64,000 nt of DNA. Source: Stenotrophomonas lactitubi. Its GTDB lineage: Bacteria > Pseudomonadota > Gammaproteobacteria > Xanthomonadales > Xanthomonadaceae. Shown here piece after piece: positions 32,842 to 35,130 of the stretch. A model generated the notes under the pieces. The model did not search any database, was not told the origin of the DNA, and saw nothing but the letters and a program-made list of their open reading frames with translations. Made by a program: the position numbers and the translations under genes. The DNA lies in NCBI RefSeq assembly GCF_002803515.1, contig NZ_PHQX01000001.1, positions 2,480,001 to 2,544,000 on the forward strand. Reading direction: 5' to 3'. Numbering within the stretch: position 1 is the stretch's first letter; the number at the start of each line of letters is the position of its first letter.

Positions 32842-33651
32842 ATGCTGCAGATTCCCCCCGAAAACATCTGGATCGCCCTGGCGGTCACCCTCGCTGCGGG
32901 CCTTGCCACCGCCATCGGCAGCCTGCTGGTGCTGTTCTCGCGCCGCCCCAACCCGCGCCTGCTGGCCTTCGGCCTGGCCTTTGCCGGCGGCGCGATGGTG
33001 TATGTCTCGCTGTCGGAGATCCTCAACAAATCCATCGCCTCGTTCGCGCTGGCCTATGGTGAGCGCACCGGCTTCACCTACGGCACCCTCGCCTTCCTGC
33101 TGGGCGTAGTGGTGATCGTGTTGATCGACCACTTCATTCCCAACCCGCATGACAGCCTGGACAAGCAAGACCCGGCGTTCCGCGAGAACAGCCGCGAATA
33201 CCTGAAGCGGGTCGCCCTGCTGACTTCGGTGGCGATCACCGCGCACAACTTTCCGGAGGGGCTGGCGACGTTCTTCGCGACGCTGGAGAGCCCGTCGGTG
33301 GGCATGCCGCTGGCCTTCGCCATTGCCATCCACAACATTCCCGAGGGCATCGCCATTGCGGTGCCGGTGTACTTCGCCACGCAGAACAAGTTCTACGCGT
33401 TCGCCGCCAGCCTGTTGTCAGGCCTGGCCGAACCGGTCGGCGCAGCGATCGGCTATGTACTGCTGTCCGGCTCCCTGTCCCACGCCACATTCGGCTGGGT
33501 GTTCGGCCTGATCGCGGGGGTGATGGTGTTCCTGGCGCTGGACGAGCTGCTGCCGGCGGCGAAGCGCTACGCCAAAGGGCACGAGACCGTGTACGGGCTG
33601 GTGGCGGGCATGGGTACGCTGGCGATCAGCCTGGTGCTGTTCAAGTGGTGA
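32842..33651 (+). CDS. zupT: ZIP-family zinc transporter ZupT
   Basis: A 269-aa ZIP importer with eight predicted membrane segments. The paired metal motifs HNFPEG and HNIPEG (about 135 and 156) are the ZupT signature; a His-poor cytoplasmic loop lies at about 92-115. It imports Zn and other divalent metals. ATG 32842 follows a GGAAC and a palindrome GCCCCGGC..GCCGGGGC at 32790. The downstream gap to rluC is the large palindrome. Confidence 0.93.
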   Translation: MLQIPPENIWIALAVTLAAGLATAIGSLLVLFSRRPNPRLLAFGLAFAGGAMVYVSLSEILNKSIASFALAYGERTGFTYGTLAFLLGVVVIVLIDHFIPNPHDSLDKQDPAFRENSREYLKRVALLTSVAITAHNFPEGLATFFATLESPSVGMPLAFAIAIHNIPEGIAIAVPVYFATQNKFYAFAASLLSGLAEPVGAAIGYVLLSGSLSHATFGWVFGLIAGVMVFLALDELLPAAKRYAKGHETVYGLVAGMGTLAISLVLFKW

Positions 33652-33658
33652 AGGGTGT

Positions 33659-34140
33659 CCGGCCAACGGGCTGAGCCCCCTCGCGGCTGGCGCATTCCAC
33701 AGTATCGAGAGGTCACGGGCGGGGTCGATTCGCGGGGGACGCCGTAAACCCTTCCCTGGGGGCTTGGCCGCGGCATCCATGCCGCGGACACCCCCGCGAA
33801 CCGACCCCGCCCGCGCCCCGTCATTTTTCCGTGCGTGCCAGCCGCGCAATGAAAGAATGAAAAGCGAAGCCCGCGCTGCGCGCGTGAGTCGAGCATGGCT
33901 CGACTCTACCCGGGCCGCCGCGCGGACCGGGTCTGCTTTTCTTTTGATGTTCCGTGGCTGGCACGCGCGCGATCTGTCTGGCGCTGGGTGGGGTGGGCTT
34001 GCGGGGGTATCCGCGCCATGGATGGCGCGGCTAAGCCTACAGGGACGTACTTGCGGCGTCCCCCGCAGGCCCACCCCGCCCAGAGCTCCCCGGCAATCCG
34101 TCACAGTGCCAGCCACGAGGGGGCTGCGCCCGTTGGCCGG
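33659..34140. repeat. 482-bp composite palindrome between convergent genes
   Basis: Seen in the sequence: arms A (33659-33693) and A' (34107-34140), B (33717-33813) and B' (33986-34083), C (33829-33865) and C' (33935-33969), in the order A B C centre C' B' A'. Each arm is a near-complement of its partner (A about 31 of 35 matches). B and B' are themselves quasi-palindromes (GGGCGGGGTCG../..CGACCCCGCCC). The centre is a SMAG-type hairpin (33886-33909). The whole gap between zupT and rluC is this structure. Single-strand folding would give one giant hairpin with nested side stems. Confidence 0.85.
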
Positions 34141-34155
34141 TCAGCCCCGCAGGGG

Positions 34156-35130
34156 CTACTTCAGCCTGTCCAGCGCCTCGACCAGCTCATCCGCCAGCGG
34201 CGCACTCAGCACATATGGGCTCTTGCCGTCGTCCAGCGCGAACTCCAGTGACGCAGCATGCAGGAACAGGCGCTTCAGCCCGATCTGCTCACGAAGCCGC
34301 TTGTTGACTGCAGGATCGCCGTATTTGTCGTCTCCGGCCACAGGATGTCCCAGATGCTGGGCATGCACACGGATCTGGTGAGTGCGGCCGGTTTCGATGC
34401 GTACTTCGCAGTAGGAATGGCCACCCTTGCGCTCCAGCACCCGGAAATGGCTGATGGATTCCTTGCCGATCGCATTGACCTGCACATGGCGCTCGCCGCC
34501 CTGGCGCAGGCCTACGTGCAATGGCGCATCGACCGTCATCACACCATCCGGCATGCGCCCGGCAAGCAGGGTCAGGTAGCGCTTGCGGATGCCGGAGCCG
34601 TGGTCTTCACGCAGCAGCGCCTGCAGCTCGCTCAGCGCCGAACGCTTCTTGGCCACGATCAACAGGCCCGAGGTGTCACGGTCCAGCCGGTGGACCAGCT
34701 CCAGGGTCTGCCCGGGGCGCAGGGCGCGCAGGGTCTCGATGGCGCCGAAGCTGATGCCGCTGCCGCCATGGCTGGCGACGCCGGTCGGCTTGTTCAGCGC
34801 CAGCAGGCGGGCGTCTTCGAAAACGATGGCCTGCTCCAGCCGACGCATGAACGCCTCGGGTGGACCCGCCTTGTCTCCCTCTTCAGTGAGACGAACGGGC
34901 GGTATCCGCACTTCGTCGCCAGCCTCCAGCTTGCGCTCGGCCTTGGCGCGGCCGCCATTGACGCGCACCTGGCCGCTGCGGACCAGCTTGTAGACAAGGC
35001 TGCGCGGGGCACCCTTGAGCTGGCCGAGCAGGAAATTGTCCAGGCGCTGGCCGGCACGGTCGGCCGGAACGGTGATCATGCGCACGGAAGGCTTGTCGCC
35101 GGCCGGCTTGGTAGGGTCTTGTGCAGTCAT
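34156..35130 (-). CDS. rluC: 23S rRNA pseudouridine synthase RluC
   Basis: A 324-aa RluA-family pseudouridine synthase. An S4 domain is near the N-terminus (GQRLDNFLLGQL, GQVRVNGGRAKAERKLEAGDEVRIP). LVHRLDRDTSGLLIVAK carries the catalytic Asp (HRLDRDTSG). The C-terminal part has RTHQIRVHAQHLGHPVAGD. It modifies U955, U2504 and U2580 of 23S rRNA in E. coli. Start ATG 35130; the N-terminal MTAQDPTKP fits. It diverges from rne, a conserved arrangement that leaves rne a long leader. Confidence 0.93.
   Translation of the reverse strand: MTAQDPTKPAGDKPSVRMITVPADRAGQRLDNFLLGQLKGAPRSLVYKLVRSGQVRVNGGRAKAERKLEAGDEVRIPPVRLTEEGDKAGPPEAFMRRLEQAIVFEDARLLALNKPTGVASHGGSGISFGAIETLRALRPGQTLELVHRLDRDTSGLLIVAKKRSALSELQALLREDHGSGIRKRYLTLLAGRMPDGVMTVDAPLHVGLRQGGERHVQVNAIGKESISHFRVLERKGGHSYCEVRIETGRTHQIRVHAQHLGHPVAGDDKYGDPAVNKRLREQIGLKRLFLHAASLEFALDDGKSPYVLSAPLADELVEALDRLK

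Follow-up and report, generated by a model that had tools for sequence, protein, structure and literature searches.

The 64-kb window (the whole stretch of Stenotrophomonas lactitubi DNA that was analysed, 64,000 nucleotides) contains two convergent genes whose stop codons are separated by an intergenic gap of 504 nt (33652..34155), and this gap is occupied by a composite palindrome. What is such a structure, and what could it do between two genes? The gene on the plus strand is zupT (32842-33651), with a score above the NCBIfam ZupT cut-off and a protein 97-99% identical to named S. maltophilia-group records. Facing it on the minus strand is a gene ending at 34156, which profile models place among the RluC/RluA-type pseudouridine synthases. 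We call it rluC-like, as the top model for its product was RluC with 332 bits, below the RluC cut-off of 378, while the cut-off of the RluA subfamily was exceeded.

A preliminary description of this DNA had proposed that three pairs of near-complementary arms lie nested around a SMAG-type hairpin, and the palindrome is indeed real. Arm A, a type I outer arm directly after the zupT stop (33653..33691), is 87% complementary over 39 nt to arm A' (34108..34146), and this pair provides terminal inverted repeats of the kind by which MITEs are recognized. B and B' are 79% complementary over 96 nt (33717-33812 with 33986-34081), and C and C' 85% over 20 nt (33830..33849 with 33950..33969; arms A, C, C' and A' are all given on the plus strand). 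All arms stood well above background in the alignment. B and B' are also each self-complementary, the former over 28 nt at 89% (33711-33738 with 33791-33818) and the latter over 34 nt at 82% (33981-34014 with 34053-34086). By eye, the central hairpin (33886..33909, minus strand) is SMAG-like, its CTAC end being a GTAG start on the other strand. The region folds far beyond chance, both as RNA (-365.3 kcal/mol vs -244.7 +/- 8.2 kcal/mol for shuffled sequences, z -14.6) and as DNA (z -15.0), with 0 of 100 shuffles as stable in either case. No Rfam family reached its gathering score in 33400-34400; the 11 sub-threshold matches at E up to 1 were mostly to miRNA models, and none was to a Csr/Rsm family. 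A consensus scan of 33500-34300 gave 0 promoter-like sites. A phage origin was rejected with 0 matches among 50,697 phage records, as was a plasmid origin, the single plasmid record that matched covering only query 3-83, which lies within the coding end of zupT.

The palindrome is not a one-off. A search of the genome with the focal element returned 115 pieces, its own locus and mirror hits counted in, and the B part of the element belongs to a dispersed family. An exact pattern of the conserved B heart had 105 matches, divided almost evenly between the strands (53 and 52), and its reversed control had 0; counts by this pattern are lower bounds, the pattern being too narrow for a census. With a covariance model of B, all 150 of the 150 candidates scored (from 5727 first-look candidates) matched at E <1e-13, and the genome therefore holds at least 150 copies. 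Throughout, 40 or 150 candidates were scored per genome, copy numbers are minima, and an absence of matches refers to the candidates scored. In the focal gap, the model placed the left B module in + orientation at 33714..33816 (102.9 bits; C1:2513714-2513816, the window coordinate being the place minus 2480000) and the right module, B', in - orientation at 33982..34084 (109.5 bits; C1:2513982-2514084).

In 77 regions of the genome (39 + 38) we found 128 B copies, arranged as 49 pairs and 30 singles, that is, 79 elements. All 49 of the 49 pairs are inverted in the order '+ then -', with a spacer of 114-207 nt in 44 of them. According to gene calls by our own codon-usage script, the flanking genes are convergent for 30 elements, tandem for 41 and divergent for 8; none of the 79 overlaps a predicted gene. 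Together with the lack of a phage match, this speaks against the concern that B might be a coding or phage fragment. The order '+ then -' also applies to adjacent B modules in 24 of 24 same-genus pairs and in 7 of 7 pairs from families f7 and f4, so that the GGA-loop module is the second to be met by a transcript; in other genera and distant species, 12 adjacent pairs are '+ -', 2 are '- +' and 1 is '- -' (3 of 15 deviate). Separately, runs of GGCAAC/GTCAAC units by a GCAGGGCTGCGCCCTGC-like hairpin occur in type II outer flanks (e.g. L040, L043, L069); their unit number differs between loci, and they look like a variable tandem repeat.

Across 47 aligned modules (45 distinct), B is a three-way junction in which an outer stem of ~23 bp carries two small hairpins, hp1 and hp2. 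In the 45 distinct rows, 26 of 37 pairs vary on both sides. Paired cells make up 98.3%, compared with 80.8% after shuffling and at most 44% with the partner slid, and the covariation of 0.446 compares with 0.141 for shuffled alignments (0 of 500 shuffles reach it) and at most 0.056 for slid versions. The suggestion that the locus is an expanded REP array thus holds in part: REP-like hairpins do serve as building blocks, but B is not SMAG/GTAG, having no GTAG at its foot, and is a separate module of ~100 nt.

The mismatches in B indicate which strand folds. We refer to the strand complementary to the B orientation as R; in the focal gap, it is the minus strand for the left B and the plus strand for B'. 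Wobble pairs are few overall in the B alignment. Read on the B strand, the outer stems of the own genome contain 40 A.C and 10 G.T mismatches (96 unique stems; 2 of 128 copies, with no recognisable heart, were left out), and three other sets gave ratios of 28:7, 32:3 and 19:5. Summed over all four sets, whose copies share ancestry, 119 A.C stand against 25 G.T on the B strand, equivalent to 119 G·U against 25 A·C on R. Since the mismatches are mostly G·U wobbles when read on R, R looks like the strand that folds. Replication-strand bias cannot cause this skew, because the two modules of an inverted pair have R on opposite strands; an element-linked C-to-T mutation bias on R could in part produce the A.C excess.

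On R, the two small hairpins end in loops that match the RsmA/CsrA site, which the preliminary description had not remarked on. The ANGGAN hexaloop is a site for CsrA/RsmE, and SELEX yielded the consensus RUACARGGAUGU (PMC7652899). Exactly two C-ANGGAN-G hexaloops closed by at least 3 bp are present on R in 126 of the 128 own copies (the deviating ones lie in L056 and L132), with 254 ANGGAN hexaloops on the R strand and 0 on the B strand. For comparison, the whole window has 8 such hexaloops on both strands, 4 of which are focal. In hp1 of the 126 copies, the first N is any of the four bases and the second is T, C or A, while A-GGA is fixed. Two hexaloops were likewise present in 63 of 68 short-loop copies from the same genus (duplicates removed), in 41 of 44 from other genera and distant species (43 of 46 before the removal from set A4 of two copies held twice by overlapping loci) and in 44 of 46 from families f7 and f4 of the same order, with 0 on the B strand in each case; these counts omit three long-loop copies and, in set A3, the loci L287 and L303 of the own genome. 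The copies in f7 and f4 keep A-GGA, although their outer and hp2 stems are unrelated and both loops have a variable N. The model R1 was built from copies with ANGGAN loops, so searches with it favour such loops to some degree. A third GGA in the inner flank was dropped as part of the motif, as it is not strand-specific (118 vs 100 of 128).

The distance between the two GGA motifs is 20 nt in 119 of the 128 own copies, 24 nt in 8 and 19 nt in 1. Bridging of two sites by a dimer has been reported for distances of 10-63 nt, with an optimum of >18 nt (PMC7652899), and the spacing in B falls inside this range, above 18 nt. The hexaloops themselves are close to the SELEX consensus, as in hp1 of the focal B' (UACAGGGACGUA); the hp2 stem of 8-10 bp, in contrast, exceeds the stems of the SELEX ligands, which are mostly <=4 bp (PMC7652899). 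Whether the loops are open differs between the hairpins. When single modules with exactly two hexaloops are folded on R to minimum energy, the GGA of hp2 stays unpaired in 116 of the 126 own copies, 58 of 63 from the same genus, 38 of 41 from other genera and distant species and 41 of 44 from f7/f4, whereas the hp1 GGA is fully unpaired in 73 of 126, 25 of 63, 30 of 41 and 26 of 44, respectively. Both focal modules follow this trend. The hp2 hexaloop is AUGGAU in each (33775..33780 on the minus strand in B, 34018..34023 on the plus strand in B') and its GGA is open; the hp1 hexaloop is AGGGAA in B (33752..33757, minus strand), with its GG paired, and AGGGAC in B' (34041..34046, plus strand), with the first G of GGA paired. 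The hp1 stem is short and has competing pairings, and presentation of its loop may depend on RsmA or may fail to occur. Because the hp1 GGA is so often paired, two sites per module cannot be claimed firmly, and our confidence is lower for it; the energy model allows, but does not predict, presentation of both loops. A single CsrA/RsmA gene is present in the genome, and its product contains the residues L4 and R44, which take part in RNA binding.

In some relatives, the loop of hp1 or hp2 holds an insert of several hairpins, as judged by eye (L146, L170, L174, L175). Folded on R, the long form in L174 has the loops CAGGACG and CAGGACAG, the former identical to the CsrB repeat CAGGA(U/A/C)G (PMC7652899), while those of L146 and L175 have no CAGGA loop of this kind; the evidence from long-form loops thus comes from few copies. 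A 23-base part of the hp2 insert is present in 16 of 19 genomes searched. Among the 66 listed matches to it that bear mismatches, counted by hand irrespective of their location inside a B loop, 38 differ at the two bases beside TCCT and 1 inside TCCT.

Our preferred reading, to which we assign a probability of roughly 65%, is that the locus is one of a dispersed set of REP-like composite palindromes in which the B module is the functional part and encodes a candidate RsmA-binding RNA in both directions. On the R strand, B would give an RNA three-way junction able to present two RsmA/CsrA hexaloops ~20 nt apart, a spacing at which one RsmA dimer could bridge both. Because the two modules are inverted, one RsmA-type module would be part of any transcript that arrives from either gene: such a transcript would run first through the TCC-loop form of one module and then through the GGA-loop form of the other, where RsmA might dock near the 3' end of the transcript. 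The docking domain could stabilise or mark the RNA, and the docking domains of at least 150 copies together could draw off RsmA. We infer that B modules are transcribed, bind RsmA and may affect the mRNA or the RsmA pool, and the many related elements suggest, short of proof, a dispersed supply of putative RsmA-binding RNA in the genome. In a global fold of the whole element, B can pair with B', which hides the loops. When no pair spans more than 112 nt, the folds of 48 elements keep a mean of 87% of the global energy (1 of the 49 pairs was too long; the open form is not the minimum), so that local folds may form first during transcription.

How unlike the stems within a pair are bears on the same point. 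One single-linkage stem class comprises 35 of the 128 own copies. The idea that pairs avoid the same stem was rejected at this level, with the same class in 12 of 49 pairs vs 11.1 expected; a pair stem similarity >0.85 was found in 0 of 49 pairs vs 3.7 expected, a weak hint of unlike stems. The RsmA reading would provide a reason for inverted pairs with unlike stems, namely that each strand needs its own working RNA fold, and would mean that intergenic palindromes in bacteria have a definite RNA function that can be tested. Among the papers listed by searches of PubMed Central, outside which most subscription papers lie, no title or abstract addressed the B repeat or a link between dispersed palindromes and RsmA binding.

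Comparison with relatives reveals how these elements come and go. At the zupT-rluC gap, B was present in 5 of 23 comparable relatives, and the remaining 18 gave no match to the model (1 of 24 loci, L092, is without the zupT end and was left out). The occupied gaps differ: L071 has two B modules of another subtype, one of them truncated, L072-L074 have the left B module only, and L089 has two that belong to a distant subtype. Of 80 named zupT loci, 11 had a B match of at least 57 bits, with two modules in S. maltophilia ATCC 700475 and one each in [Pseudomonas] hibiscicola ATCC 19867 and S. maltophilia IAM 12423; for the comparison of rluC, 19 of the 80 had no rluC in the fetched stretch and were left out. 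At a second locus, L051, 21 relatives were compared, and 9 of the 16 with both flanks found have a two-B element. Eight of these nine share a frame in which whole B cassettes have been exchanged, both arms together (L141, L143 and L144 vs L051); three relatives have other sequence containing an open frame. At a third locus, L043, 12 of 21 relatives could be measured, of which 7 have B and one has the frame without B, and empty gaps of 22 nt (L178/L179) and about 2-8 nt (L181/L182, with extrapolated flanks) contrast with 548 nt in the occupied state. The comparisons at L051 and L043 cover relatives with both flanks. At the three loci, elements have thus been gained, lost and re-equipped with B cassettes between species.

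The family reaches beyond the genus. The B model had matches in 11 of 11 genomes from 6 genera, ten of them picked by the heart pattern and one (G306) by locus, and in 17 of 22 further genomes it had none among the candidates scored, a useful negative control. Two genomes of family f7 gave 39 and 45 matches and family f4 gave 3 weak ones; the same-genus genomes G245 and G256, with 0 matches by the heart pattern, had 28 and 53 by the model, and four same-genus genomes had no B among the candidates scored. All these model counts may include weaker mirror matches on the opposite strand. B therefore recurs at other gaps of its own genome and in other Stenotrophomonas, where the preliminary description had proposed looking for it, and also in other genera and families.

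A few other sequences were noticed in the compared gaps. In L073, L074 and L078, the zupT-rluC gap contains other sequence with an inverted tract (GGTTACTTT.CTTTGC...GCAAAGAAAGT) that either takes the place of the element's right half or occurs by itself, and looks like a separate dispersed repeat. Some type II centres at the L043 locus (L169, L173, L174, L176) consist of an almost perfect palindrome (GGGGTCAGATCCG...CGGATCTGACCCC), which may be another repeat. The 429-nt zupT-rluC gap of Xanthomonas chitinilytica (L088/L228) appears, by eye, to have a small open frame, perhaps TonB C-terminal-like. A record titled Bacillus subtilis SK7B5 (L233) has a Stenotrophomonas-like zupT-rluC region with 84% and 92% protein identity, and is probably a contamination or mislabelled.

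Such turnover fits mobility, and the locus had indeed been suspected to be the scar of a mobile element. B might accordingly be the recognition end of a non-autonomous mobile element, with an HUH/Y1 transposase reading the hairpins of the R strand and conservation serving transposition and not RsmA. The high copy number, the stem class with 35 of 128 copies, the strand specificity of the hairpin and the whole elements missing from orthologous gaps would all be in keeping with this, as would the 5 Y1_Tnp genes in the genome. DNA hairpins tolerate G.T better than A.C, and the mismatch bias can be counted here as well. However, the 5 Y1_Tnp genes have no B in the flanks retrieved, about 1.5 kb on each side, B has no GTAG foot, and an ANGGAN loop with a free N is not what a transposase site would predict. 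Target site duplications were not seen either, though the compared elements run from stop to stop and leave no flank in which one could be read. Presence/absence and cassette exchange fit mobility, but no transposase link was seen in the retrieved flanks, and we consider a transposition end an unlikely explanation for B.

The gene context of the elements bears on another possibility, that the palindromes are bidirectional transcription ends, or stabilise mRNA 3' ends by stem strength alone, with the GGA loops incidental. The elements are mostly in convergent or tandem gaps (30 + 41 vs 8 divergent), the convergent excess has p = 0.006 against the 52 gaps of the window, and the L051 orthologous set has, by eye, a T-flanked central GC hairpin. 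When the 23 window gaps of at least 100 nt serve as the reference, however, the excess of convergent gaps loses significance (p = 0.21); for the deficit of divergent gaps, p is 0.29 with all 52 gaps and 0.04 with these 23. The focal gap has one terminator-like site in 33500-34300 (33922-33936) vs 0.4 expected in the consensus scan. The scan gave the earlier proposal of a bidirectional transcription end no support, and elements also lie in tandem (41 of 79) and some divergent (8 of 79) gaps. Nor does stem strength predict the invariant A-GGA loops or the one-strand wobble bias, and we regard this explanation as distinctly improbable. Single modules between tandem genes have R in sense in 6 cases and in antisense in 9, and this lack of a sense preference argues against a simple 3'UTR role. 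Lastly, the palindromes could be passive and without function, kept by template switching and gene conversion within or between copies, to which the paired exchange of stem arms in a constant frame, the low number of wobble pairs and a B/B' chimera in L171 (by eye) would lend themselves, but copying explains neither the fixed A-GGA with a free N despite stem turnover across families nor the one-strand wobble preference, and we give it very little credence.

Returning to B as a candidate RsmA-binding RNA, we can ask what it would mean at the scale of the genome. In Stenotrophomonas and its relatives, RsmA might be titrated in a distributed manner, by hundreds of hexaloops in gene 3' regions on mobile-like inverted modules, besides or instead of a CsrB-type RNA; we put this forward tentatively and at somewhat less than even odds. 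If it were true, free RsmA would follow the summed transcription of many genes, the spread of the elements would occur with the help of RsmA or despite it, and unlike stems with a common heart would keep the RsmA-type fold out of a long duplex. At least 150 copies with two consensus RsmA loops each would also name candidate RsmA partners for the group.

How does B compare with known systems? SMAG/GTAG REPs and REPINs are, like the B elements, intergenic palindromes near gene 3' ends that form inverted dimers, often heterodimers (PMC3733652, PMC3686654). They have GTAG at one end of a palindrome of 20-40 bp, whereas B is ~100 nt, branched and without the GTAG foot; SMAG-like hairpins do occur inside the composite, and the one at its centre has the GTAG end. 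SMAG/GTAG REPs are tied to RAYT (Y1_Tnp) genes, and we rejected a RAYT as mobiliser of B, the fetched flanks of all 5 Y1_Tnp genes being without a B match. CGTC REPs resemble the B elements in being palindromic, mostly in inverted dimers and without a dedicated transposase, and are described as an 8-9 bp stem with a 4-5 nt loop and a CGTC tag at one end (PMC3733652); B, with its outer stem of ~23 bp and two internal hairpins, is not of this type. On the RNA side, the sRNAs CsrB and RsmX/Y/Z share with B several hairpins with GGA loops, the ANGGAN/CAGGA motif and a spacing suited to dimer bridging (PMC7652899). They are single RNA genes, whereas B modules number at least 150 and sit between genes, for the most part as inverted pairs, and the focal site differs from the CsrB/RsmZ type in having neither an Rfam family at gathering score nor a promoter-like site. 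RsmU of Xanthomonas campestris, which we compared by description only, is unlike B a single locus, reported as conserved only in Xanthomonas, and changes to its GGA motifs did not abolish RsmA binding (PMC7694677). Like the RNA that we propose for B, it is an RsmA-binding RNA, derived from a 3'UTR, with 3-4 predicted GGA motifs, and it comes from a related genus (PMC7694677).
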